Assembly: GCA_031255175.1 (NCBI GenBank)
Contig: JAIRTA010000009.1
Span: forward strand, 1-44,421
Direction: 5' to 3'
Source of the DNA: Oscillospiraceae bacterium
GTDB lineage: Bacteria; Bacillota; Clostridia; Oscillospirales; UBA929
DNA: 44,421 nucleotides
Part shown: positions 9,375-44,405 of the stretch, piece by piece
How positions within the stretch are numbered: the first letter of the stretch is position 1
How the letters are laid out: each line of letters begins with the position of its first letter
The notes under the pieces: generated by a model
The model's database searches: none
What the model saw: only the letters and a program-made list of their open reading frames with translations
Told to the model about the DNA's origin: nothing
Translations under genes and position numbers: made by a program

Positions 9375-12300
9375 ATGCATGTATCCAAAAAGAGAATCCT
9401 CAGCGCCCTCCTCGCCGCGATAATGCTCTTTTCGTGCTTTTCGATGGGAGCTCTCGCGGCGCCTATTGTCGCCGTCAGAGTGGACAACCCGCCCTTTGAG
9501 TTCCTTGAGATAGGCAAGCAGTACCAATTTACCGCCACCGTAAAACCGGTTGACGCGGAAGGGTTGACCTGGAACGTCTGCCAGGAAGACGGGCTGACGC
9601 CCTCCGACAAGGCCGTCATCGACGAAACGGGTCTGTTGACGGCCCTGAGCGGCGGATACATAACCGTCGTCGCCTCCGACCCGGCGAAGGCCGTCCGCAG
9701 CGCTTACCTGATGTTTATTTTGGACACCTCCAAAGTCTACAACATCCTCAGTAAGCGGACATCCTCCGCGCTGACGGCCAACACGGCCGGCACCGGCGTC
9801 ACGGTGGCGGCCAACACGGATTCCGCCGCCCAGCAGTGGAAAATCCATCTCAGCCCCGAGGGCCATATGAGCTTCCAAAATGTGGGCACCGGCGGGTTCA
9901 TCAACGCGACCGGCGACTCCTCGCTCTCCCTGGCCGAGTACGCCGACACGGCCAGCCAGCGCTTTTCCGTGTCCGGCAAAGTGGAATACGGGGTGTCCAA
10001 TTACACCTCCCTCAACGACGACCTGCCGCTTGTGGAACTCGGCGCCTTCCGCTTCACCAGCATGTCGAACCCGGGCAGAGTGTTCAGCGGCAGCTCCGGC
10101 ACGCTGAGCATGGCGGCCCTCGCCATAGAAGACTCTTACACCGAACAGCGGTCGGCGCAGAAATACACCTTTGTGGAATCCGGCGTGCCGGCCGTCAGCC
10201 TGGAGGGCCTGCGCAAAACGGCCAAAGTCGTGGCGACGTTCGGCACATCCCCCTACAGCGCCTCCTCCACCTTCGACAAGGCCTTTGACGGCAGCACATC
10301 CACCGTCTTCGACAGCAGCAACGGCGCCGGCTACGCCGGGATTGAACTGGCGGAGCCGACGGTGGTCACGGCGGCCAGGTTTTACCCCAGAAGCAATTAC
10401 AACATCCGCGCCTTCAGGGGCGTCATTCAGGGTTCAAACAGCAAAGAGTCCGGCTATGTGGACCTCTACGAGTTCAACGCCACCCCCTTCTCCACGGCGT
10501 GGACCACCGTGAGCATCAACAACACGACGGCCTACCGCTTCTACCGCTATGCTTCACCGCCCTACGGCTACACCAACGTCGCCGAGATCGAGTTCTACGA
10601 ACCCGACATCGAAGAGGCCAAGACAGATGTGCAGATCGCGGCCCCGGACTTTTTGACCGTGGGGCAGTCGTACGATCTGACCGTGAGCCTTTCTCCCGAA
10701 GACGCGTTCACCCCGATTTGGGGCGTCTACCAGGAGGACGGCTACACGGCGACCAACAAGGCCTCCATCGACAGCGGAACCGGCCGTTTGACAGCGCTGG
10801 AGACAGGGTATGTCACGGTGGTCGTCACAGACCCGGAAAAGACGGCGCGCGGTTCTTATCTGCTGTTTATCTTAGACCCGCAAAAGACCTATCAGATCGT
10901 CAGCAAGCAGTCGGGGCAAGCCCTGGCGGCCAACGAAACGGGTGACGGCGTCGCGCTCCTCGCGGCATCGGCGGACAGCCCCGCGCAGCAGTGGGCCGTG
11001 CATGTCTCCGAATCGGGTTTGGTCTTCAAAAATACCGAAAATGGTAAATTTATCCAACCCTCCGGGAACGGCCTTGTTTTGGCGGAGGAGGCCTCCGACG
11101 CCGCGCAGCGGTTTGGCGTCGTCAGCAAGATCCCTTACACCGCGTCGAATTATACGCAGTTCGGCTCCGTGACCGAGCTGGGCGCCTTTAAGTTTGAACG
11201 CGACGGCGCCGTGCTCACCGCCGACGGCGGCGCGCTTCTGCTGGCCCCGCCCATCGCGGAGGACAGCGTGACCGAGCAGGGCGCACAGCAAAAATGGACA
11301 TTTGTGCCCGTGGGCAGCCCCGCCTTCAGCCTCGAGGGCCTGGTCAAACTGCCCGTCATCGAAAGCTTCGGTGGCTACGGGGACCCGTACAGCGCCAGCA
11401 ACGCGGTCGGCGCGGCGTTCGACGGCGACACGAACACATTCTTTGACAACAAATACAACATCGGGTACGCCGGCATCCAGCTGGAACAGCCGAGAGAACT
11501 GAAAGCCGTCCGGTTCTTCGCCAGAGCCGGGTTCAACATCCGCGCATTCAAGGGGTACATCGAGGGCTCCGACGACGGCGTTCGTTTTGACAAGCTGTAT
11601 GAGTTGAACGCGGCGCCGACCAGCGCCGGGTGGACGCAATTCTATGTCAACACGGGCAAGCCTTACCGGTACTACCGTTACATCTCGCCGGATTACGGCT
11701 ACGGGAACGTCGCCGAAGTCGAGTTTTACGCCGAGGCGGACCCCCTGGAGGCGGCGCTCATCTCGGAGACGGTGACATCTCCCGACGGCCAGATCTCCTT
11801 CCGCCTGACGCTCAACCATTACGGCGTGCCGAAGTATTCCGTGGTGCGCGACGGCGCCGAGGTCATTGAGGAGTCCGGCCTCGGGTTTGTGACGAGGGAC
11901 GAGAGCTACACCGGCGACCTTGTCTATGCCGGCAAAGAGGACAATTATGTGGACGCGGTGTTCCACATGGTCTCCGGCAAGAGTTCCACCATTCGCAACA
12001 ACTACAACGAAACCACATTCCGCTTTACCAAGAACGGGAAGCCCTTTGGCATCCGTGTCCGCGCTTATGACGACGGCGTAGGGTTCAAATACCTGCTGGA
12101 CGGAAGCGGGTCGGCCGTGGCCTCCGCTGAGAAGACGTCCTTTAAGCTGCCGCCCGGGTCCGTCACATGGGCCATGCCGTACCAGGCCGCCCATGAGACG
12201 CTGTATGTAAAAAGGCCGGTCACGTCGCTCTCGGGGTCGTACATCATGCCCTTCCTGGCCAACGTCCGCGACGACACCTTCGCGCTGCTCCTCCAGTCCG

Positions 12301-14930
12301 ATCTGGATTCGAGATATGTGGGCTCACAGCTGACGACCCGAGGCATGGGGCTGCTGAACACCACCTTTGTCAGCCAACAGGGCTCCGCGGCCGTAAACCT
12401 GACGCTGCCGTTCGAATCCCCGTGGCGCGCCATTGTCATCGGCTCCCTCAAAAACGTGGCGGAGAGCAACCTGGTGCAGTGCCTCGCGCCCGAGACCACG
12501 ATGGACACCAGTTGGATCGAACCGGGCGTCACCGCCTGGACCTGGTACAACAACGACTCCTGCCGCGACTTCGAAGTGTACAAATCGTACATCGACCTGG
12601 CCCACGAGATGGGCTGGAAATACATCCTGCTGGATGAGGGCTGGCAGCTCGGCAACAACGAGGGGACTGTCGGCGGCTCCAACTATTACGGCGTACTCCC
12701 CTGGATCCCGGATCTCATTGAATACGGGCGCGAGAGGGGCGTCGGCCTGCTGGTCTGGGCGCACTACCGCGACATGCAGGGCGACAAGATAAACCGCATC
12801 CGGGAATGGGCCGAACTGGGCATCAAGGGAACCAAAGTGGACTTCTTTAACAGCGAGGCGCAGAGCGTCCTGGCCGAGATAGACAGGATCCGCGAGGAGA
12901 CGGCCAAGTGGGGCCTGCTGCTCAACCTCCACGGCGCGGTGACGCCGACGGGCGAGAACCGCACCTACCCGCACCTCCTCTCACGCGAGGGTGTCTACGG
13001 CGAGGAGCAAAAGAAGTGGAACTCCACGACGGTGTCGCAAGACATCATCCTGCCCTTCACCCGCGGCGTCCCCGGCGAGGTGGACTACACCCCGGCGTAT
13101 TCCACGCTGTTTGGCAGGGCCGGCAGCCGGACATACGGCTACAGCACCGCGCTGACGGTGGTGCTCGAAAACGGCATCCCCTGCTTCGCCGACAAGCCCG
13201 CCGTGTACCGCACGGCCGCGACCTACGACTTCTTCCGGAACATCCCGGCGGTTTGGGATGAATCCCTCTTCCTCGGCGGTTACCCGGAGGAATACGCGGC
13301 CTTTGCGAGGAGAAGCCAGGAAAATTGGTACATCGGCGCCATCACCGCCGCGGCGCGTACGTTCACGGTCGACCTCGACTTCTTAGAGGCGGGAACGTCT
13401 TACTACGCCTCCATCTACACAGACGGCGCGACACGGACCGACGTCAACATCGACTACCGCCGGGTGTCTAAGGGCGACACCATCGACCTGCCCATGCTGA
13501 CCAGCGGCGGCGCGGTGGTCAAACTCACCAAACAGGCGCCGAAGCTTCCCAAAAATGTCACCGTCAGCCCGTCCGCCCTCAGCGTTGACCTCGGCAAGAC
13601 GGCCCGCTTCGACGCGGCGGTGGACACCTCGGACGGCATCCCGGACATCACAAAGTTCATCTGGGCGGCCGAAGACCCGGAGATCGCGGAAGTCTCCGCC
13701 ACCGGCGTCGTGACGGGTAAGAAACCGGGGCGCACCGCCATCTCACTGATGAGCCCGGCGGGCGCTGTCGCCACGGCCTACGTCACGGTGGAACCCGGCT
13801 TTGTGCTGAACGACTCCTGGCGCGTGCTGCGCGGGAACAGCAACGCCGCCGTTTTGTCCCCCACGAGCCTCGAGATCTCGACCGAGCCCGGAGACCTTTG
13901 GCAGATGCGCAACAACGCGGGCACCGTCAACAACATCTATCTGACCGACGTTGAGAACACGGCGGACGGCTCCTTCACCGTCACGGCGGAGCTCACCTTC
14001 CGGCCCACCGTCAACTATCAGACAGCCGGCATCGCCGTCTACCTGGGAGACGGCAACTTCGTGTCGATCCTGCGGCGCTACCATTCCGGCGGCTCACCTT
14101 TCAACTGCGTCATGTCCGTCATGAACACAAACTCCAGCGCCACCAACCCGGCCACCCCGACGAGTTCGTCGGAGAACCGCTACGCGGACGTCGCCACGGA
14201 GAAGATCTACTTGAAATTGGAAAAAGTTGGATCCTCCATCACCGGCTACTACAGCGCCAACGGAGAGACGTGGACACCGACCGTCGCCCGGACAAACGCC
14301 CTTCTGACCAACGCACCGGTGCTCGGCGTCGGCTTCTACGCGGCCAACGGCAATGTGTCGACTTCCATTCCGGCGGTCTTTGAAAACTTCCGGCTGAACG
14401 ACACGCTCATCCCCTTCTCAGAAAACGTCATCGCCGCCGCCGCCGAGGAGAGCATTTTGACATCCGTTGGCGTCGCGCCCACGCTCCCCGCCGCGGTGCA
14501 GGTGAAATACAGCGACAAATCGGAAGACACAGCCGCCGTCATATGGGATTCTTACGACCCCGCCCTGCTGGACACACCCGGTGTCTTTGTGGTGGAGGGA
14601 ACCATTGACGGGACGAACAACGTCAGGGCGAAGGCCCGTGTGACGGTCCTGCCGCCCACGCTCACGGCGTCGCTCACGCTGTCGTCTCCGGAGCCCGGCC
14701 GCGCGAGAGTCGACGCGGAACTGCTCAACGGCGGCGCGCCGGTCTCCTACTTCCTCATCCTCGCCTTCTACGACGCCTCCGGACGCCTGGCCGGCACGGA
14801 AGTCTCGGCCGGTATCTCGGAGACCCTGTCGGCACAAGCGTCGCTTGAAGCCGCGTGGCCGGAGGACTGCACAGCCCGCGCGTTCCTGTGGGACGCAAAC
14901 TTCCAACCGATTCAAACAGTTAACAGTTAA
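9375..14930 (+). CDS. Secreted multi-modular GH97 glycosidase, retaining type
   Basis: A predicted extracellular glycoside hydrolase of 1851 residues. MHVSKKRILSALLAAIML...ALAA is a signal peptide. Residues about 31-414 and 415-791 are two copies of a Big2-like / ricin-like / F5/8 C (CBM32-like) block. The GH97 barrel spans about 791-1386, followed by Big2 (1391-1472), a concanavalin-like domain (1474-1674), a Big_4-like domain (1691-1761) and the shared C-terminal module (1762-1851). Family motifs include WTWYNND, YILLDEGW, GTKVDFF and LHGAVTPTGENRTYP. Asp1156 in KVDFF fits the nucleophile of retaining GH97 alpha-galactosidase-type members, and Glu1210 or Glu1211 is the likely general acid. 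The start at 9375 follows AAGGAG and gives the signal peptide. The in-frame GTG at 9273 adds a charged, non-secretory segment. The substrate is unknown, but an alpha-galactoside is the first guess. Confidence 0.85.
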   Translation: MHVSKKRILSALLAAIMLFSCFSMGALAAPIVAVRVDNPPFEFLEIGKQYQFTATVKPVDAEGLTWNVCQEDGLTPSDKAVIDETGLLTALSGGYITVVASDPAKAVRSAYLMFILDTSKVYNILSKRTSSALTANTAGTGVTVAANTDSAAQQWKIHLSPEGHMSFQNVGTGGFINATGDSSLSLAEYADTASQRFSVSGKVEYGVSNYTSLNDDLPLVELGAFRFTSMSNPGRVFSGSSGTLSMAALAIEDSYTEQRSAQKYTFVESGVPAVSLEGLRKTAKVVATFGTSPYSASSTFDKAFDGSTSTVFDSSNGAGYAGIELAEPTVVTAARFYPRSNYNIRAFRGVIQGSNSKESGYVDLYEFNATPFSTAWTTVSINNTTAYRFYRYASPPYGYTNVAEIEFYEPDIEEAKTDVQIAAPDFLTVGQSYDLTVSLSPEDAFTPIWGVYQEDGYTATNKASIDSGTGRLTALETGYVTVVVTDPEKTARGSYLLFILDPQKTYQIVSKQSGQALAANETGDGVALLAASADSPAQQWAVHVSESGLVFKNTENGKFIQPSGNGLVLAEEASDAAQRFGVVSKIPYTASNYTQFGSVTELGAFKFERDGAVLTADGGALLLAPPIAEDSVTEQGAQQKWTFVPVGSPAFSLEGLVKLPVIESFGGYGDPYSASNAVGAAFDGDTNTFFDNKYNIGYAGIQLEQPRELKAVRFFARAGFNIRAFKGYIEGSDDGVRFDKLYELNAAPTSAGWTQFYVNTGKPYRYYRYISPDYGYGNVAEVEFYAEADPLEAALISETVTSPDGQISFRLTLNHYGVPKYSVVRDGAEVIEESGLGFVTRDESYTGDLVYAGKEDNYVDAVFHMVSGKSSTIRNNYNETTFRFTKNGKPFGIRVRAYDDGVGFKYLLDGSGSAVASAEKTSFKLPPGSVTWAMPYQAAHETLYVKRPVTSLSGSYIMPFLANVRDDTFALLLQSDLDSRYVGSQLTTRGMGLLNTTFVSQQGSAAVNLTLPFESPWRAIVIGSLKNVAESNLVQCLAPETTMDTSWIEPGVTAWTWYNNDSCRDFEVYKSYIDLAHEMGWKYILLDEGWQLGNNEGTVGGSNYYGVLPWIPDLIEYGRERGVGLLVWAHYRDMQGDKINRIREWAELGIKGTKVDFFNSEAQSVLAEIDRIREETAKWGLLLNLHGAVTPTGENRTYPHLLSREGVYGEEQKKWNSTTVSQDIILPFTRGVPGEVDYTPAYSTLFGRAGSRTYGYSTALTVVLENGIPCFADKPAVYRTAATYDFFRNIPAVWDESLFLGGYPEEYAAFARRSQENWYIGAITAAARTFTVDLDFLEAGTSYYASIYTDGATRTDVNIDYRRVSKGDTIDLPMLTSGGAVVKLTKQAPKLPKNVTVSPSALSVDLGKTARFDAAVDTSDGIPDITKFIWAAEDPEIAEVSATGVVTGKKPGRTAISLMSPAGAVATAYVTVEPGFVLNDSWRVLRGNSNAAVLSPTSLEISTEPGDLWQMRNNAGTVNNIYLTDVENTADGSFTVTAELTFRPTVNYQTAGIAVYLGDGNFVSILRRYHSGGSPFNCVMSVMNTNSSATNPATPTSSSENRYADVATEKIYLKLEKVGSSITGYYSANGETWTPTVARTNALLTNAPVLGVGFYAANGNVSTSIPAVFENFRLNDTLIPFSENVIAAAAEESILTSVGVAPTLPAAVQVKYSDKSEDTAAVIWDSYDPALLDTPGVFVVEGTIDGTNNVRAKARVTVLPPTLTASLTLSSPEPGRARVDAELLNGGAPVSYFLILAFYDASGRLAGTEVSAGISETLSAQASLEAAWPEDCTARAFLWDANFQPIQTVNS
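9465..11745 (+). repeat. Duplicated 380-residue block inside the GH97 gene
   Basis: The encoded blocks at about 9465-10615 and 10620-11745 align end to end. Paired segments include NVCQEDG / GVYQEDG, YLMFILDTSKVYNILSK / YLLFILDPQKTYQIVSK, AAQQWKIH / AQQWAVH, and NIRAFRG / NIRAFKG. Each block is Big2-like, then ricin-like, then an F5/8 C-type carbohydrate-binding fold. The copies have diverged substantially, so this is an old tandem duplication that likely raises avidity for a polymer. Confidence 0.85.
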
Positions 14931-15071
14931 CAGATAACAGTTGGTGCTTTCTGCAGCGTGTTTCTAAAGATAGAGGCCGTCAGGCGATTTGCCTGACGGC
15001 CTCTTTTGGTTGGGTTGGTTTTGTGTGTTTGCTTTTGGTTGTTAACTGTTATCTGTTAACTGTTAACTGTT
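14915..15071. repeat. 28-bp perfect inverted repeats spanning two convergent gene ends
   Basis: The 28 bases at 14915-14942 (7-bp period of TAACAGT type) recur as an exact reverse complement at 15044-15071, with 101 bases between. The left arm contains the last codons and stop of the + strand GH97 gene (TVNS), and the right arm contains those of the - strand GH2 gene (TVNR). A terminator hairpin sits in the middle. The arrangement resembles a small inserted element or a shared dispersed repeat that supplied new C-terminal tails. Confidence 0.9.
14973..15003. terminator. Bidirectional intrinsic terminator
   Basis: GAGGCCGTCAGGC and GCCTGACGGCCTC form a perfect 13-bp stem with a GATTT loop. 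On the + strand the stem is followed by TTTTGGTT. On the - strand it is followed by TATCTTTAG. It lies between the convergent GH97 and GH2 genes and should end both transcripts. Confidence 0.9.
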
Positions 15072-18000
15072 GCTTGGGGTCGATCAGGGGGGTGAGGTCG
15101 GCGCTCCATAGGAATATTTTTGTTTGCGCGGCTGCGCTGAAGTCGAAGTCGGTCTCGAGGGATATAAGGCCCGCGCCTTCCGCGCGATACTGCTCCGCGT
15201 TCAGCAGTCTGCCCTCGTCGTCATACGCGGCCAGGATCACAAACGCGTCTATGGGGTTGGGGGCGTGGACGGTCAGCCGCGTCACTGTGTTTTCGTCCCG
15301 CGCCACGTCGATCCACAGCGTCCATATGGCGTACAGCGTCAGGTCTTCGGCCGGCATTGTGATCTCCTCGCCGGGCTGATAGCCCGTGCCGGAGCCGTCC
15401 GGCTCGGTGTTCCATTCGACAAACGAGGCCTCCTCGCCCGGCGGTGTGATCCCTCCGACGTGGGCCGCGCCGAATGCGTCCCCGGCGCCCACGGTCGGCT
15501 GGATCGGGACTTCGCCGCCTCCGCCGTTGAGATCGTATGTGACCATGTAGTCGGGTTCGGCCGCGATCTCAACGCGAAGTGTCGGCGCCCGCGACGGATT
15601 TGCGCCGGCGCCCTCCTTGGAGGTGATCCTGTAGTCGGCGGAGGTGCTGTTTGCGCTGAGCGCGATCGCCAGTTGGTTGTCGACGTCCGGCACGCGGCGG
15701 TATATGTCCGTCACGTCGATGGTCACCGCTCTGCCCGACCCCGTTGAGAACGTGCCGGATTCCGCCGTCCCCTCGGAGGCGTAGAAGCCACGCGCGTAGT
15801 TGACCCATGTCACTTGGTTCTCGTTCCAGGTCGGATTGGCCCTGGCGGCGCGCAGCAGGATGTTGCCGGAGGCGGTGCCGTTTTGCGAGCCGGCGTACCA
15901 CAGGGCCAGCGTGGCCGATTTGATGTCCATCCCCTTCAGCGACTCGATGTTGAACCGGATCAGGCTTGTCTTGATGTCGGTGCCGTCGCTGGTGCTTGTG
16001 CTTGTGAAATTTTCGCCAAACTGGCCGTTTGTGCCGGTGTTGTTGGTCTGACGCAGCAGCATTTCCGAATCGCTGCCGTAGTTGCTGTTCTTTTCGGACT
16101 GCCACGTCTTCAAAGTCGCGTCGGCGCTCGCCCTGATCTCGATGTACGGATTTTTCTCCCAGACGGCATAGAACGTCGTGTCGTCCGTGATGACGACGTC
16201 GCCCACCTCCACCGGCGTTTTGCTCGCGCGGTCGGTCGTCCAACCGCGGAAGACGTAGCCGTCTCTGGTCGGGGACGCCGCGGGCGCCGGCGCGGACGTG
16301 CCTTCGGGCACAAAGACAACGATGTCCTCCGCGCTGTCGCCGATGCTTCCGCCGTACATGTTGAAGCTGACGTTGACGCCTCTGCCGACGGTCACGACGT
16401 ACGCCTTCTCCGCGCCGCCGTTCGACACGATGTAGGTGACCGGGTTTGTGAAGTCCTGCGGGCCGGCCGGGCGAACGGCCGCGCCGGCGCTCGGGACGAC
16501 TTCGGGCGTGAGGTTCGTCACATTGACCGCTTTGGGCACCGTCACGGTGACCGTGCCCGCGTTGTGGTCGATGATGCCGTCGTATTCGCCCAGCTTGAAG
16601 TAGGCGAGGGCCGTGTCGTACAGGGTTGTCTCACGGCCGCCTCTGAGCGTGATGCCTGTCATGTTGAATTGCCACGTGTTGCCGGACGGATATGTCACGC
16701 GCAGGAAGTTCGTGCCCTCCGGGAACGCGGCCTCGTCGTTTGACGTGAACGTCCTCTGCGGCCAGACCGAGCCGGTGCCGGTGCCGGAGAGCACGCCGCT
16801 CTTGGTAAAGGCGGTGAAGTTTGTCCAGTTTGTGCCGTCGGTTGACGTCGCGAAGGTGAAATTGCCGCTGTTTGATATGGCCGTTGTGCTCGCCACATTC
16901 AATATCCGGAAATAGCGCAGGCCGGGCGCGGCAAAGACAACCTGGTTGTTGTTCCCGGACGCATTCGGGTACGCGCCGTATTCGAAGCCGTAGCTTTGCA
17001 CGTTCTCGACCCTCATGTTGGCGCTGGCCGAGTAGATCAGCTTCGACGTCGGCGCCGCGGTGCTGAGGTTCAGCATGTTTGCGCTGCCCAGCCCGATCGG
17101 GTAGTCGAATTTCTCGCTCTCGCTCCAACTGCCGACCTTGTCGTGGAAATTGTCCTGCCGGCGCGCCGCGTTGTAGTCCGTGATGACCCGCGCCAGCGCC
17201 ACGCCGTTGGATGTGCCCTCAAGCGGACCGTAGACCGGCTGCACGCTGCCCGCCGGGAACATGCCCGCGGTGAGCGGCTGCCACATGACTTTGAAGTTCA
17301 CGGCCCCCGCGCCCGGGACGGTCGCCTGCACGGTGGACGGCAGCGTGGGAATCCGCCCGTTGCTGTTTAAGTAGATCTGTTTGGGGAGGTCGACTTCGCT
17401 CACGGCAATGCGCGTCGAAAGGAACTTCGTATCGACCCAGTCGGCCAAGTCGTGTTCCGGACCGTCTGTCCCCCTCGCCTCCGTGACAAGCCTGACGGCG
17501 GACCTTCCGGTGACGTCGATGTCGAGGAAGGCGGCCTCGTGGGCGCTGTCCATGACCGGGCTCGCGAAGACCGGCTCGGTCTCGTCGTCGAGATACACTT
17601 TGAACGCGACCGCGCCCGGCGCGGCCACGCCGCCCCCGTATATGCTCAGATTGATGTAGGACTGGAAGCGCTCATAGCCCTTTCCGGCTATGTCGATCGC
17701 CACCTCGGCGGGCGCCAGCGTCCCTATGCCTTTTTCGTACGCTTCGCCGGGGCCGCCCTGCAAACCTCTCGCCTGCAGGAGCCTGCCGTCTATCATTTTG
17801 TCTTTGTTTACCGTCCCCGTTTGAGACGTCCAGGGCAGGTCGCTCGCGTACACGGCGATGTTGACGCGCACCCAAGCCGTGGCCTTGATGTCGGACGCCA
17901 AGACCACACCCGTCACCTTTTTCACGCCGACAAACTCGACGTCATCGGGTGTGATGTCCCAGTCGACGCCCAGCATCTCCTGCGTGCCGTCGGTGAATTT

Positions 18001-21000
18001 TGCCATAACGGTCGCCGGCATGACCGGCATCTCGTTGACCACGGTGTGCAGCGTGATGTCGTCGATAGACTGAAGCCGCTTCACCGTCACGTCGGCCACG
18101 ACGTTCAGGGCGGGGCCGAGTTTGCCCGTCACGGTGAACGTGCCCTGATCCGCGTACTGCGCGGGGCTGACCGGGTCCCACGTCACCTGCGCCGCGCCGA
18201 CGGTGCCGTCCGCGAAGCGGAGTGTGACGGACCTCGGAAGCGGCGGCTGCACGCCCGCGATCGTCGTCACGGCCACTCTGTCAATGGAGTCGATCGCCTT
18301 GACGTGGACAATGGCCTCGATCTGCCCCGACGTGCCAACGGACACGCCGCGCGCGGTGTATGTCCCGACGGCGTTCAGATCGACGCCGGCCAAGTCCCAT
18401 GAGGAGATGTCGACCTGCTCGATCAGGCCGTTGTCGTAGATGACGCCGACGGTCTCCGGCAACACCGGCGGGAGGCCCGCCCCCGTGGTCACCTCGGGTT
18501 TTTCGTACGCGTAGATGCCGGTTCCGTCCCCTATCGCCGCTCTTGCCCCGACGGTGACGGTGTTGGAAGCGATCTGCCCCTCGGTCGCGGGCGCCGTGGC
18601 CGTCACGACGATGTCATCTACGCTGCCCTCTGTGGCTCTGACAATGGCCAGCGCCTTGCCGTTGAAGGCCCTTCTGTTGTTGCTGGTGTTTCTGTTGTAG
18701 TCGTTGTTCGTGCCCCTGAACGGGTCGTTGTCCCTCGGGTCGCCGTTGTCGAGCGCGACGATCTCGCCGCCCTGCACGGCGAATGTGATGCGGTTGTTGG
18801 CCGTGGGCACCATGACGCCGGCGCTGTCGACGACCGTGGCCTCCACAAACAACAGGTCTGTCCCGTCATTTCTGATAAACGCCCTGTCGCCGGAAAGGAC
18901 AATGGACTGCGCCTCGCCCGCCGTGTATACCACGTCGGTGGCGATGACGTTGCCCGCCGCGTCTTTGGCGACCGCTTTGAGCTCGCCCGGCTGGAAGAGC
19001 TGGAAGCCGAACTCCAGATACACGGGGGAAGCGGTCTTCTTGTCGTAACTCTTGACGCCCAAAGACCTGTCGTTGATGAACACCTCGACGCTCGCCGCGT
19101 TGGTGTACACCATGATGGGGACCTGGGTGCCCATGTCCCAATTCCATTTTTGCGGCAGCAGATGCACGGTGGGGATATCTGTCCACGCGGAACGGTACAT
19201 GTAGAACGCGTCTTTTTCGAAACCGGCCGTGTCTATGATCCCGAAATACGAGCTCCTGGAAGGGTTGCCGTGGGGCGTCGGCTCTCCCAGATAGTCGTGG
19301 CCTGTCCAAACCATCTCGCCGAAAAGGAAGGGCATCATGTCTTCGCGGTGCTCGCGGATGGATATGCTGGCCGTCACGAAGTTCCTGTTAAACGGCCATT
19401 CGGAGGCGTAGCCGCTGGAGTGGGCTTCTCTGAACCCGGCTTCGCCGCCTTTGTAGTGGTCGATGTTGTAGACGCCCCTCGTGTAGAAGGCCGAAACCGT
19501 CTCTGTGCCGGCCACGCTCATGTTGGGGTATCTGTTTTTGTGGGTGGCGTACTGGTTGGTGGCCCTGGAATAGTTGTGGCCGCCTATATCCGCCATAGCC
19601 ATGTTGTCGATCATCGCGGAGGCCCCGCTGTCCCACGTGGGCGGCGCGGATGAGACGGGCCTGGCGTACCGGCCGCCCCTGACCGCGTGGTCTGTGGTGT
19701 AGTTGTTGCTCGCGCTGGGCAGCGCGGCATGGTTTTGGCTGGGGGTGGGGCGTATCGTCCGGTTGGTATCGGTGTTGATCACGCTGGTGTAGGGGATGTT
19801 GTCCAGCGAGTCGATCTCTTTGATCGCCGCCGCGAGCAGCCACTGCGTATCCAGCCCGTGGCCTTCCTTTGTGTCGTAGATCTCATTGCCGGTGCTCCAC
19901 AGGAAGACGGACGGGGAGTTTTTGTCTCTGTTTACCATCGCCTGGATGTCGCGCACGGCGTTGGGGACAAGGTCGGGCCTCAGCCACTGCACGTAGGTGT
20001 TGGCCCCCGTGGCGGCGGAGCGCTGAAACACAACCGTCGTGCCATCCGCGGCTTTGTTGAAGTAATTGGAGTAGTCGCCGCCGTTTTTCGACGCCATCCA
20101 CTGGTCGAAGCCCTCTTCGAAGATGAGCATCCCAAGCCGGTCGGCGGCCTCGATGTATTCGGGCGAGATTGGGTTGTGGGCGGTCCGGACGACGTTGACG
20201 CCCATGCTCTTCAGCTTTCTGAGCCTGCGGTCAACGGCGGCCTGGTATGTCTCCATGCCCAGCGCGCCGAGGTCGCGGTGCTCGCAGACGCCGTGTATCG
20301 GCGTGTATTCCCCGTTCAGGTACAGCCCGCCGAGCGTGTTGTCCTCGCTGTACGGCGCGGTGTAAGAACCGGGCGACAGATACAGATACCGTATGCCGAA
20401 CCTCGTGTCGAGCGTGTCCGCGACCCGGCCGTTTTGTATGATCTCCGTCTTTACCCAATACAGGTTCGGTTCCTGTATGCTCCAAAGCTTCGGGTTCGCG
20501 ATGTCGATCAGCTGGTCGATTTTAACCTTCCCGCCGGCCGGAACGACGACGCCGTCCTCCTGTTTGGAGGCGACGTTGGCGTTCTCTTTGCTGTAGATGA
20601 CCGAACGGATGGACACTTCGGCGGCGGCGGCGGTCTTGTTTTCGACGTTTGTGCGGACATTGACCGTCGATTTGGCCCTCAGCGCGTCCATATCCGGAGG
20701 TCTGTGAAAATCAGGCGTCACATATTTTCCATTTTCTTCCACCACCGCGGCGACGTGGATGCCGTTAACGGGGATATGTATCTTGTCGGTGGCGATCAGA
20801 TACACGCTGCCGTAAATCCCCGCCCCCGGGTACCAGCGGGCGCTGTTGTTCGCCGAGAACGCCTTGACCGCGATGACGTTTTCCTGCCCGTCGAAGCGGA
20901 GGTATTCCGTAATGTCGTACTCGAAGGTGACGTAGCCCAAAAATTGCTTGCCCAAGTGCGTGCCGTTGACCCATACGTCACTGACCATTTGCACGGCGTC

Positions 21001-21396
21001 AAATTGCAGCACAACGTTCTTGTCTTTTAAGTCGTCGGAAAGCGTGAACGCCTTGCGGTACCAGCCGGTGCCCCCGATCAGAGCGCCTTGGGCCGCCCGC
21101 GCCGTTGAATAATCGAATCCCTGGTAGATGCTCCAGTCGTGAGGCAGCTGCACCGTACTCCATGTTCCGGTCTCGGTGTAGCCGATCTGGCTCGCCGTCG
21201 CGTCCAGCGTGGTGTTATTGGTGTTGTTGGTGGCGAGATGCCGGAACCTCCAATCGTCATTCATTTTGATCTTCCGCGCACCGAATTCCACCGGTTCCCG
21301 GGCCTCGGCGCGCAGATCTGCACTGCTCAGCGTGTAAGGCAGTACACTGAGAAGCATGGCAAGCGCGAGACATAGCGGCAAAAACCTTTTTCGCAT
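15049..21396 (-). CDS. Secreted multi-modular GH2 beta-galactosidase-like enzyme
   Basis: A 2115-residue predicted exoenzyme with signal peptide MRKRFLPLCLALAMLLSVLP. The GH2 sugar-binding, Ig-like and barrel domains cover about 40-700. Barrel motifs are GVCEHRDLGALG, FLWSTGNEIYD (Glu505, acid/base), GTETVSAFYTRG (Glu632, nucleophile) and GEMVWTGHDYLGEPTP. GH2-associated Ig modules follow (to about 905). Next come three Big_4-like repeats (930-1175), an NPCBM/CBM51 domain (1181-1331), a discoidin-like segment (1419-1586) and an InlB-type repeat (1676-1749). A DNRLRE/CBM96-like domain (1751-1944), a second InlB-type repeat (1949-2026) and the shared C-terminal module complete the protein. AAGGAG precedes the ATG. 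It has its own promoter at 21493-21521 and ends convergently with the + strand GH97 gene. The exact linkage specificity is unknown. Confidence 0.88.
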   Translation of the reverse strand: MRKRFLPLCLALAMLLSVLPYTLSSADLRAEAREPVEFGARKIKMNDDWRFRHLATNNTNNTTLDATASQIGYTETGTWSTVQLPHDWSIYQGFDYSTARAAQGALIGGTGWYRKAFTLSDDLKDKNVVLQFDAVQMVSDVWVNGTHLGKQFLGYVTFEYDITEYLRFDGQENVIAVKAFSANNSARWYPGAGIYGSVYLIATDKIHIPVNGIHVAAVVEENGKYVTPDFHRPPDMDALRAKSTVNVRTNVENKTAAAAEVSIRSVIYSKENANVASKQEDGVVVPAGGKVKIDQLIDIANPKLWSIQEPNLYWVKTEIIQNGRVADTLDTRFGIRYLYLSPGSYTAPYSEDNTLGGLYLNGEYTPIHGVCEHRDLGALGMETYQAAVDRRLRKLKSMGVNVVRTAHNPISPEYIEAADRLGMLIFEEGFDQWMASKNGGDYSNYFNKAADGTTVVFQRSAATGANTYVQWLRPDLVPNAVRDIQAMVNRDKNSPSVFLWSTGNEIYDTKEGHGLDTQWLLAAAIKEIDSLDNIPYTSVINTDTNRTIRPTPSQNHAALPSASNNYTTDHAVRGGRYARPVSSAPPTWDSGASAMIDNMAMADIGGHNYSRATNQYATHKNRYPNMSVAGTETVSAFYTRGVYNIDHYKGGEAGFREAHSSGYASEWPFNRNFVTASISIREHREDMMPFLFGEMVWTGHDYLGEPTPHGNPSRSSYFGIIDTAGFEKDAFYMYRSAWTDIPTVHLLPQKWNWDMGTQVPIMVYTNAASVEVFINDRSLGVKSYDKKTASPVYLEFGFQLFQPGELKAVAKDAAGNVIATDVVYTAGEAQSIVLSGDRAFIRNDGTDLLFVEATVVDSAGVMVPTANNRITFAVQGGEIVALDNGDPRDNDPFRGTNNDYNRNTSNNRRAFNGKALAIVRATEGSVDDIVVTATAPATEGQIASNTVTVGARAAIGDGTGIYAYEKPEVTTGAGLPPVLPETVGVIYDNGLIEQVDISSWDLAGVDLNAVGTYTARGVSVGTSGQIEAIVHVKAIDSIDRVAVTTIAGVQPPLPRSVTLRFADGTVGAAQVTWDPVSPAQYADQGTFTVTGKLGPALNVVADVTVKRLQSIDDITLHTVVNEMPVMPATVMAKFTDGTQEMLGVDWDITPDDVEFVGVKKVTGVVLASDIKATAWVRVNIAVYASDLPWTSQTGTVNKDKMIDGRLLQARGLQGGPGEAYEKGIGTLAPAEVAIDIAGKGYERFQSYINLSIYGGGVAAPGAVAFKVYLDDETEPVFASPVMDSAHEAAFLDIDVTGRSAVRLVTEARGTDGPEHDLADWVDTKFLSTRIAVSEVDLPKQIYLNSNGRIPTLPSTVQATVPGAGAVNFKVMWQPLTAGMFPAGSVQPVYGPLEGTSNGVALARVITDYNAARRQDNFHDKVGSWSESEKFDYPIGLGSANMLNLSTAAPTSKLIYSASANMRVENVQSYGFEYGAYPNASGNNNQVVFAAPGLRYFRILNVASTTAISNSGNFTFATSTDGTNWTNFTAFTKSGVLSGTGTGSVWPQRTFTSNDEAAFPEGTNFLRVTYPSGNTWQFNMTGITLRGGRETTLYDTALAYFKLGEYDGIIDHNAGTVTVTVPKAVNVTNLTPEVVPSAGAAVRPAGPQDFTNPVTYIVSNGGAEKAYVVTVGRGVNVSFNMYGGSIGDSAEDIVVFVPEGTSAPAPAASPTRDGYVFRGWTTDRASKTPVEVGDVVITDDTTFYAVWEKNPYIEIRASADATLKTWQSEKNSNYGSDSEMLLRQTNNTGTNGQFGENFTSTSTSDGTDIKTSLIRFNIESLKGMDIKSATLALWYAGSQNGTASGNILLRAARANPTWNENQVTWVNYARGFYASEGTAESGTFSTGSGRAVTIDVTDIYRRVPDVDNQLAIALSANSTSADYRITSKEGAGANPSRAPTLRVEIAAEPDYMVTYDLNGGGGEVPIQPTVGAGDAFGAAHVGGITPPGEEASFVEWNTEPDGSGTGYQPGEEITMPAEDLTLYAIWTLWIDVARDENTVTRLTVHAPNPIDAFVILAAYDDEGRLLNAEQYRAEGAGLISLETDFDFSAAAQTKIFLWSADLTPLIDPKQQLTVNR

Positions 21397-21521: not shown

Positions 21522-21558
21522 GGGACGCTTGTAAAAATCATGTGTGTCCGTGTGATTT

Positions 21559-21602
21559 TTGTATAAAATCACCGCATGATCAGGCGGGGAATTGTCCGGC
21601 GG
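21559..21602 (-). repeat. 44-bp conserved block, copy 1
   Basis: This block is identical to 26597-26640 at 42 of 44 positions. It starts just after the stop of the inverting-type GH97 gene and lies 37 bases upstream of the GH2 -35 element. Here GTGATTTT and AAAATCAC (21552-21572) also form a hairpin that is not kept in copy 2. Confidence 0.9.
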
Positions 21603-21608
21603 CGATTC

Positions 21609-26560: not shown

Positions 26561-26596
26561 GAGATATCTGTAAAAAACATGGATCCTCGCGTAACT

Positions 26597-26640
26597 TTGT
26601 ATAAAATCACCACATAATCAGGCGGGGAATTGTCCGGCGG
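26597..26640 (-). repeat. 44-bp conserved block, copy 2
   Basis: This copy is 42 of 44 identical to 21559-21602. Here it encodes the last residues (GQFPA) and stop of the GH127-like protein, while copy 1 is entirely downstream of its gene's stop and would read in another frame. It lies 36 bases upstream of the -35 element, nearly the same spacing as copy 1. Confidence 0.9.
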
Positions 26641-29600
26641 CGCAGAGCGGTGCATGGGTGTCCCGCTCCCAGAGATACGCCCGGGCCGTTCCGTCGGCCG
26701 GGAGGGCCGCCGCCATCGTATGGTGATAGGCCGCCCCCGCGCCGACGTCCGCCTCATCGGCGTACAGGCCGATGAGGCGGCCCCGCGCGTCGTAGACGGC
26801 CAGCAGACACAGCACCGCCCTGCCGCCGCCGGCTGTGTTGACCACGGTGAAGGCGGCCTCGGCCGTGCCGTCGCCGCCGCCCGGGCCCACGCTGACGGAC
26901 GCTCTGAACGCGGTGTACTCCGCCTCGTCGGAGTCCGGCTTGGCGGCGCAGAGCAACAGCTGCCGGGCCAGCCCGAGCGTCATCTGGTTCGCCTGGGGAT
27001 CTTGGCTCACGGCGTCGGCGTACGCGACCGCGCGCGCCCACCGCGCGGCGCTGGCCCCGGTAAACGCCGACGTATCCCACACCCTCGCCTCGGCCAGCGT
27101 CGCCGTCAGCTGTCCGGCGATTTTCTCCGTCGTCTCGCGCCCGCCCGTCGTCACGGCGATCTCCCGCGACGCGGCCACAAGGTTCATGTTGCTCAGCGCG
27201 TAGAACCGCAGGTAATAGACGCCGGGCGCGGGCACGGCAAAGGCGGTCTTGCCGGCGGTGATCACCCCGGCCGCGTACCCGCTTGTCACAATGTCCGTGA
27301 TCTCCCCGGTGTACACCCCCGGCTGTATGCCGTAGGCCACCTTGTACGCGGTGGCGCCCGCGACCTTCGGGAATTTTATCTGGATGATCGTGCCGGCGGA
27401 CGCCGCCGTCACGTCGATCTCCTGAACCGGCCGCGCGCTGAGTTCGGCCCTGTCCTGCCCGGAGACGGCGCGGACCGTCACATTGTCCGCCGTGAATTTC
27501 CGGTTGTACCCCCGCAGGCCGATCTTGCCCGCCGCAAACTGCGTGTCGCTGACGCTGTACACCGGCACGCCGTTGACGGAATAGTGGAGCTCGCCGCCGC
27601 TCGCGACGACCTTCAAGTGGTTCACCTGGCCGATGGGCTTCACCGCACCGTGGGCCGGCTCCGACAGAGACGTCCAGTTGTTGTTGGCCTTGCCGATGAC
27701 AACCCCGTCGCGCCGGATGCCGAAGTAATAACCCCTGTAGGCGTCCGCGCCGGACCCCTCACCCGTCACACGGACCATGAGGCCCGCGTTGTTGCCGTTG
27801 TTGTCGTCCACCAGACGGATGTCGGCCTCATATACATAGTCGGACCAATCCGCCTGCCCGGCGACGGCCTTGATGTTGCTGCTGCTGCCCAGCTGGATGA
27901 CGCCGCCGTCCACCGTGACGAGCGATGTGTTTCCGTATGCCGTCCACCGGGCGCCGGACGCCGCGGCGTCGGAGAAATCGTCGAAGAAATCGGGCCCGGC
28001 GGGGGCGGCGAGCCAGGCGAGATCCTCCCGCGTCACGGGCCTGACGTCGACGCCGTAGACCGTAAACGCCTCGTTGTAAGAACGCAGGCCGACCGTCCCG
28101 GCGGCAAAGCGCGCATCCCGGACGGCGCCGGCCCACACGCCGTCTACAAACGCCGCGATCGTCTCGCCGTGGGCCACCACTTTCAACGCGTATGTCCGCC
28201 CGGCCTCGATGTGCCACGGGATCCATTTGAGCGTGTGCCAGCCACCGTCCGCGTAGCCGATCACCACACCGGTCCCGTTCACCTCACTGACCCGCCCGAT
28301 CCCGACAAAATACCCGCGATAGTTGTCCGGCCCGGCCCCGCTGCCGGAGGCGCGGATCATCAGGCCGGCGTTGTTGTTGTCCGCCAGCGTGACGGACAGC
28401 GCCGCCTCGGCCGTGTAATCCGTCCACGTCTGCGGGGCCGCCTCCGTCTGCGGGGCGCGGACGAGCACCGTTTTGACGTCGCTGTCCCGCCCGAACGCCA
28501 GCCGCGTCCGCCCGTCTTCCTCCTCGGGCACGATCATCTGGGTATTGCCGTACGCCTGCCACTCGGTCCGGTACGCCTCCGCGGAACCAAAACCCGCGTA
28601 CCGCGCGTCGGGCGCGCCGGCGTCCGGTTCCGGGCTCTCCTGCGATGTGCCGTTGAACGCGCTCAGGTCCTCCTGTGTGACGGGGCGGACCGTGACGCCG
28701 TAGACGGTGAACGCCTCGTCGTAAGAGCGCAGACCGACCGTGCCGCTCGCGAAGCGGCTGTCCTCAAACGTCGTGACAAACTCGTTGTCCAGATAGACGG
28801 CGAACTTCTCCCCGCGGGCCACCACCTTCAGCGTGTAAATCCGGCCGGGCACAATGGGCCGCGCCGCCTGCTTGATGTCGTGCCAGCCGCCGTCCGCGTA
28901 GCCGATCACCACATGGCTGGTGCCGGCCGCGGCCGCCCCGAACCGGCCGATGCCGACAAAGTACCCCTCATACCCGTCTGCGCCGTCCCGGGGGTTCGAC
29001 ACCCGGAGCATCAGGCCGGCGTTGTTGCGCTCGATGTCGTCCACCGACAGGCGGACCTCCGCGACGTAATCGGTCCACTGCGCGGCGCCGGCCGCGTTCA
29101 GATAGGCCTTGTGGTTTGTGCCCCGTTCGAACCGGACGCGCGCCGGGTCTCCCTCCGGAACGGACACGGTGCCGCCCGGGCTGATCCATGTCCAGTCGCG
29201 CCGTATGTCGTCCGGCGCGGCGAATCCGCCGTACACCGCCTCCGGCGCGTTCGGGTCGGGCGTCAGCGCGCCGTCGGACGGCGCCGGCGCCAGCACATAT
29301 TCCCTGCTCTCTTTGGCGGCGCCGTTGATGACGGCCCGGACCCGCACGTAGTAGGTCGCCTCCGGGTTTAGCCCCGTGATCTGCGCGGCGCCGCCGGCAA
29401 AGCCGGACACCTCCGCCGTGTAGACGCCGGGCTCCGTTCCGTACACCACGCGGTACGGGGTCTCCTGGGCGCTGAGGTTGGTCGTCAGCCGGATCCCCGT
29501 CGTCGTCCGGCTCACGCTGCCGACCGCGATGTCACTGATGGCCCTGCCGACGGGGATGACCTCGACAAAGGACACCGTGAGCCCCTCGGTGAAGCGCAAA

Positions 29601-43847: not shown

Positions 43848-44405
43848 GTGAACGACGAAGCCCTGTTCGCCGATTGGTCTACCCGTGCCGACATCAAGAA
43901 CCAGTTGAACATGGATTTGAACTTGGAACTGAACTTGGAACTGAACTTGGAACTGACTTGGAACCTACTTGGAACTAAAAACGCCAAGAATGAAAATCTG
44001 ATATTTGAGACCGGCATACGCAAATCAAAACCTCTTCCAGACTTCCGACACTCTGATAATTATCTGGTTCATATGGTGTTGCCAGGCGATAGACTCAAAG
44101 AGCGAATGCTTGCTATGTTCAGGAAGATTGACAAAGAGATAATGGATGGTCTTTCCACCCAAGAGTTGATGATAATAAATTTGTTGTTTCATGGTTTATA
44201 GGCAGATGAAACCTTGATGCCGTATATGCCCAGATTGTTGGATATTGGATTAATCAAGCAAGGCGGCGGCATCGACTATTTCATAAATCCACAAGTGCGC
44301 GACATGTGGCCGAATGATGACATAAATGTCACTGTCAATGGCGAAAACGGCTCGCTAAACAGCACAATATTCCAATCTTGCGCTGATACTGTTTTTACGG
44401 CATAA
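43848..44405 (+). pseudogene. Decayed C-terminal fragment of an AlbA/Schlafen-type ATP-binding regulator
   Basis: Reading frame 43848-44201 ends FHGL with TAG, but the same frame continues at once with ADETLMPYMPRLLDIGLIKQGG up to 44405. Joined, PLPDFRHSDNYLVHMVLPG, STQELMIINLL and MPRLLDIGLIKQ match the C-terminal end of ATP-binding proteins with an AlbA_2 (Schlafen-like) domain, as I recognise them. The N-terminal domains are missing: upstream is only a 12-bp tandem repeat and a short unmatched segment after GTG. The most likely reading is a truncated, nonsense-mutated remnant. Its base composition is much more AT-rich than the neighbouring genes, so foreign origin is plausible. A short expressed 117-residue protein cannot be excluded. 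Confidence 0.65.
43918..43976 (+). repeat. 12-bp tandem repeat, about five units
   Basis: TGAACTTGGAAC occurs three times exactly (43918-43953), then twice in shortened 11-base form (TGACTTGGAAC and CTACTTGGAAC). In the pseudogene frame it encodes the LNLELNLELNLEL stretch. It looks like slippage expansion at the broken 5' end of the gene fragment. Confidence 0.85.

Follow-up and report, generated by a model that had tools for sequence, protein, structure and literature searches.

Inverted heptamer arrays at the ends of two convergent glycoside hydrolase genes: a lineage-specific pair and its likely relation to S23-type elements

Why should two convergent genes both end inside the arms of a single exact inverted repeat? 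The question is raised by a 44,421-nucleotide stretch of DNA from an Oscillospiraceae bacterium (hereafter the window), which belongs to a genome of 2.5 Mb and 97% completeness, here termed G000. The original prediction for this locus offered three answers, namely a miniature element, gene conversion between gene ends, or selection for a cruciform terminator. The features concerned are as follows.

9375..14930, + strand: multidomain GH97 glycoside hydrolase gene (Pfam), with its stop codon within the left array
14915..14943, + strand: left heptamer array (AACAGTT AACAGTT AACAGAT AACAGTT G), which gives the GH97 gene its last codons and stop
14972..15004, + strand: intrinsic terminator between the arrays, a perfect 14-bp stem (AGAGGCCGTCAGGC/GCCTGACGGCCTCT) followed by a T-rich tail
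15039..15071, - strand: right heptamer array, inverted (on the - strand AACAGTT AACAGTT AACAGAT AACAGTT AACAA), which gives the GH2 gene its last codons and stop
15049..21357, - strand: multidomain GH2-family gene (Pfam), with its stop codon within the right array

Pfam confirmed GH97 and GH2 domains in the two facing genes. The arms (14915-14942 and 15044-15071) are 28 nt each, 100% complementary and 101 nt apart, exactly the perfect repeat with a 7-bp period that had been predicted. Both are heptamer arrays, the left one composed of (AACAGTT)2 AACAGAT AACAGTT, and the right array runs beyond its arm to a length of 33 bp (15039-15071). The GH97 frame (+ strand, end 14930) closes with ..Q-TVNS* and the GH2 frame (- strand, end 15049) with ..TVNR*; both stops fall within the arrays, and the two tails are thus encoded by the repeat, as anticipated. 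The central intrinsic terminator is a feature separate from the arrays. It had been described as bidirectional, of which the terminator itself stood and the second direction was not borne out, as the T-run lies on the + strand only and a scan of the - strand found no intrinsic terminator. It probably belongs to the GH97 gene, the sister genomes showing a terminator at the same place. The 101-nt core between the arms holds no ORF and has no match elsewhere in the genomes searched, where only the arrays match. The RNA fold of the 157-bp unit is predicted at -84 kcal/mol (z=-10.7), and the terminal inverted repeats are able to form a long RNA stem, as in elements of the intervening sequence (IVS)/S23 type. 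Chance identity of the arms had been called negligible. This was overstated, because few unit variants exist and two type-I four-unit arrays would match with a chance of ~1% (arithmetic from unit counts). The identity is therefore notable, though not overwhelming; gene conversion or template switching may lie behind it, one arm having perhaps been copied locally from the other. Elsewhere in the window, a 47-bp sequence occurs at 21558-21604 and 26596-26642 (96% identity), close to where large genes that follow one another end, and a 12-bp tandem repeat, TGAACTTGGAAC, is present in ~6 copies at 43906-43976.

The arrays are by no means confined to this locus. Allowing at most one mismatch, AACAGTTAACAG has 7 matches in the window vs 0.06 expected, and a search of the genome for the window 28-mer found it not to be unique, a third exact copy lying at C118:7067-7094. 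The degenerate class RAYARWK, which comprises two subfamilies (AACAGTT/AACAGAT/AACAGTG and GACAATT/GACAGTT/GATAATT), gives 87 pattern matches in G000, corresponding to ~45 arrays. With their tandem 7-bp units (at least two) and many similar arrays genome-wide, the window arrays are dispersed heptamer tandem arrays. Pattern matches in family relatives range from none to 249, and exact copies of the 28-mer, with the identical two unit variants, were found in cyanobacteria, Bacteroidetes and Bacillota. The arrays of G000 mostly occur singly, and most flank no terminator. Shared unit order between array loci, considered as proof of array copying in G000, showed no excess over shuffles and was set aside. 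By simple count, some two dozen of the places listed for G011, a relative, show the mosaic GACAATG-AACAATT-GACAATT.

The placement of the arrays relative to genes was analyzed using gene 3' ends from codon-usage gene calls, and arrays within 40 bp were counted. Near gene 3' ends (<=40 bp) in G000, ~20 arrays lie in sense and 4 in antisense orientation (p=0.0008), sense being the orientation that supplies stop codons, and in ~13 cases the array overlaps the gene end. On one strand, every RAYARWK unit contains TGA, TAA or TAG, and a period of 7 puts stops into all frames; the orientation bias may therefore result from selection for insertions that are tolerated. A stop codon in every unit was also considered as a general property, which holds for RAYARWK only; stops are lacking from S23-flanking arrays built of other units, such as CAATTCG. 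Placement bears as well on the idea that the arrays are binding sites of a translation or RNA regulator, as proposed for the TAACTGA arrays of Beggiatoaceae. Similar intergenic heptamer arrays in three other bacterial groups would fit such a role (PMC4679880). The TAACTGA arrays, however, lie mostly upstream of starts (PMC4679880), whereas the near-gene arrays here are mostly found at 3' ends, overlapping the stop, and they are not conserved at orthologous genes, which makes regulator sites a quite improbable account.

The locus was also compared with sister genomes of the same genus. G003 and G004 keep the GH97 gene with 80% nucleotide identity up to window position 14896, and in both the gene ends in ..FRPLAESAG* or ..FRPLTESAG*, with an ordinary terminator behind it but no array. 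The original prediction had proposed that a 28-mer unique in the genome and differing arms in sister strains would argue against a mobile or dispersed element; the 28-mer is not unique, and the arms turned out to be absent, not just different, in the sister species. A joined-flank query was used for seven other array sites. Empty sites were found for L101 in G003 and G002, for L104 in G004 and for L024 in G002 and G003, while the L101 site in G004 carries a GAGAATG-type array instead. Similarly, the end of a uvrB-like gene carries a GACAATT array in G000 and an AACAGTG array in G003, and some array sites in sisters hold another dispersed hairpin repeat. No target-site duplication is visible at the window pair, where the intergenic sequence of the sisters has diverged beyond alignment; intergenic divergence in this genus prevents a base-exact reading of the insertion. 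Since orthologous gene ends are empty or carry a different array, the arrays are, as far as sequence comparison indicates, lineage-specific insertions rather than a conserved terminator, and gene ends are recurrent landing sites for them. As a separate observation, a dispersed repeat, GTTGCCGCGAAGCGGCAACAAAAAACAAGAATTTGGGTTGTGGG, occurs at gene ends in sister genomes (L190, L195, L196, L201 and L210), its L210 copy lying inside an inverted heptamer pair.

The same comparison bears directly on a selected bidirectional terminator or cruciform, in which the outer arms would make the terminator more stable and shield the transcripts of both convergent genes. The convergent genes, the central terminator and the very stable predicted fold are what such a structure would lead one to expect. 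Nevertheless, in the sisters the GH97 gene is closed by an ordinary terminator that lacks arms, the arrays of G000 mostly stand alone and away from terminators, the central T-run is on one strand only, and array position and unit change between species. Selection for a cruciform terminator, as originally suggested, is accordingly improbable, and a conserved terminator function for the window pair is unlikely.

Close pairs of arrays (within ~300 bp) provided further information. The ratio of inverted to direct pairs is 6:0 in G000 and ~12:0 in G036, and ~5 inverted to 2 direct pairs occur in G011. In G015, ~9 direct vs ~5 inverted pairs were counted, many of the direct ones being tandem duplications of array-bearing repeats, which contradicts a general rule that close pairs are always inverted. 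Two loci of the latter genome, L281 (G015:C40) and L280 (G015:C131), contain array-bearing units of ~103-118 bp that are tandemly duplicated 3-4 times and intermixed with further dispersed repeats that are GC-rich. G036 has nine inverted pairs around related cores of ~84 bp, and that core always lies between inverted arrays; the array pair therefore moves as a unit in that genome. The suggestion of a miniature or dispersed element can thus be retained for the arrays, which number ~45, are lineage-specific, favour inverted close pairs in most genomes examined and have a MITE-like version in a relative; it does not extend to the 157-bp unit, the core of which is unmatched and holds the terminator.

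These data can be set against a purely local origin, in which the arrays would be neutral heptamer microsatellites grown by polymerase slippage and the match of the arms would be accidental or due to a template switch over the hairpin of the terminator. Such switching is well established near hairpins, the unit variants are few, and shared unit order does not go beyond shuffles. A 7-nt preference of slippage has also been proposed earlier, according to a statement quoted in PMC4679880. Such growth, however, does not account for three phyla sharing the same unit variants, for close pairs in G000 and G036 being more often inverted than direct, for the bias in orientation at gene ends or for the conserved core between the G036 arrays, and we regard it as unlikely.

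One of the G036 inverted pairs encloses an S23 gene (23S-rRNA intervening-sequence protein family, PF05635). Beyond its place in 23S rRNA IVSs, this family is not known to have a function; the closest solved structure is 2rld. Of 48 S23 genes from the same order, 6 have period-7 arrays on both sides and 9 on one side, compared with 0 and 24 of 878 control placements, and arrays of periods 5, 6, 8, 9 and 10 are almost never seen. For plasmid S23 genes, period-7 arrays occur on both sides of 11/14 and on at least one side of 14/14 (1/69 and 3/69 for control genes), and none of periods 5, 6, 8 or 9 were seen. These 14 loci span Bacteroidota, Spirochaetota, Cyanobacteriota, Bacillota and Chloroflexota, L217 and L219 being close relatives, and the 69 control genes were taken from two of the plasmids. 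The flanking arrays are usually inverted, with exact inverted matches of 33-39 bp in four plasmid loci; the unit is different at almost every locus and the period constant. Moreover, the gene upstream of the plasmid S23 loci often ends inside an array, as do the window genes.

Empty sites on related plasmids revealed that the S23 unit replaces target DNA (467 bp for ~328 bp, 423 for ~188 and 587 for ~62), and no obvious target duplication was found in these comparisons. For instance, L217 (555-1451) and L219 have an S23 unit inside a DNA cytosine methyltransferase gene, where it replaces ~328 bp; the inverted heptamer arms of the unit are perfect over 34 bp, and the methyltransferase gene is intact in the related plasmids L236 and L237. 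The cyanobacterial plasmids L220 and L222 carry S23 units that separate cas2 from cas1 and replace ~62 bp, the two genes being adjacent in other plasmids (L234 and L235). Replacement of this kind also bears on a conventional MITE, with terminal repeats recognised in trans by a DDE transposase and with target duplication. Inverted ends, small size, dispersal and the conserved core of the G036 version would all suit a MITE; its ends would nevertheless have to be variable tandem arrays in place of fixed terminal repeats, a target duplication was not observed, the S23-carrying relatives replace target DNA and the window core is unique. We consider this origin very improbable.

No match to PF05635 was found in G000 (97% complete) or in G011, the relative richest in arrays, and no S23 genes were found at the exact-28-mer loci in cyanobacteria, Bacteroidetes, Bacillota or viral contigs. 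In view of the former result, the arrays persist, and probably spread, without S23. In the open-access journal literature searched, a remark on a Coxiella heptamer was the only mention of S23 together with heptamer arrays. Besides, many S23 genes that lack heptamer arrays (L158, L143, L165, L168, L179, L136 and L162) are flanked by arrays in which a conserved spacer of ~6-9 nt alternates with variable palindromes, for example GGCTAAATC-hairpin-GGCTAAATC, GATATG-hairpin and TGAATTG-hairpin, possibly a second arm type. The only PF05635-like gene of the genus, at L155 (G003:C59), is followed by a sequence resembling the variable region of a diversity-generating retroelement, which suggests that it encodes an Avd-type protein.

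Taken together, the explanation we prefer, at roughly even confidence, is that the window carries two dispersed heptamer arrays as a close, inverted and lineage-specific pair, which is most likely an ORF-less solo element of the S23/IVS type. Because neither G000 nor G011 has an S23 gene, we infer this most likely membership from architecture. RAYARWK arrays would have arrived in the window lineage after its split from the sequenced sisters, by copying or replacement at gene junctions, one for each convergent gene, at its 3' end, and oriented so that each unit brings a stop codon. With period-7 stops in all three frames, the genes would then end within the array, a few of their C-terminal residues having been substituted. 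As a warning for annotation, the C-terminal residues of genes that end in such heptamer arrays are not native. Inverted heptamer pairs of the window type would be the arms of a wider element class, the coding member of which would be the S23, or 23S-rRNA intervening-sequence, protein. The 23S rRNA IVSs are known RNase III substrates; if transcribed, the arms would likewise pair into a ~30-bp stem, and an RNA-stem or RNase III step as well as a role of the S23 protein may be involved.

More tentatively, with a probability that we place clearly below even, inverted heptamer arrays might serve as arms for a single class of selfish elements that spans the bacteria and has S23 ('four helix bundle protein') as its sole gene. 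The IVSs, the S23 cassettes of gene junctions and dispersed heptamer arrays like the window pair, which have long lacked an explanation, would then be coding and ORF-less forms of this class, settling at gene junctions by replacing target DNA and tolerated as their arms stop translation and/or fold into a processed RNA stem. Heptamer tandem arrays have been reported in scattered bacteria since at least 2015 without a mechanism. The association of S23 with heptamers, which concerns period 7 only, is usually inverted and comes from several phyla with empty sites, would join two open questions and make both testable.

Several known systems resemble the window pair in part. MITEs share small size, dispersal and inverted ends with the G036 version and differ in that the array ends here are variable and tandem, no target duplication was seen, there is no link to a transposase and the window unit is not multicopy. 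The short tandemly repeated repetitive (STRR) heptanucleotides of cyanobacteria are likewise dispersed heptamer tandem arrays, with unit sequences that differ from the window arrays, and we know of no description of inverted pairing among them. TAACTGA direct repeats, described in marine Beggiatoaceae, Cyanobacteria and Bacteroidetes (MacGregor 2015, PMC4679880), are also short tandem heptamers that are intergenic and patchy across phyla, and TAACTGA, read on the other strand, is one letter away from AACAGTT. They lie mostly just upstream of start codons, with 169 direct sets and one indirect (PMC4679880), and are thus almost never inverted, whereas RAYARWK arrays are mostly at 3' ends and their close pairs are usually inverted. 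The 23S rRNA IVS of Coxiella has tandem GACAGAT beside an S23 ORF and a 28-bp terminal stem, is excised by RNase III and replaces a loop of the 23S rRNA (PMC4990558). Unlike this IVS, the window pair has no ORF and lies between two glycoside hydrolase genes rather than in 23S rRNA; yet IVSs replace a target segment, as S23-carrying units do, a 28-bp inverted stem is common to the IVS and the window pair, and the IVS heptamer GACAGAT fits RAYARWK.
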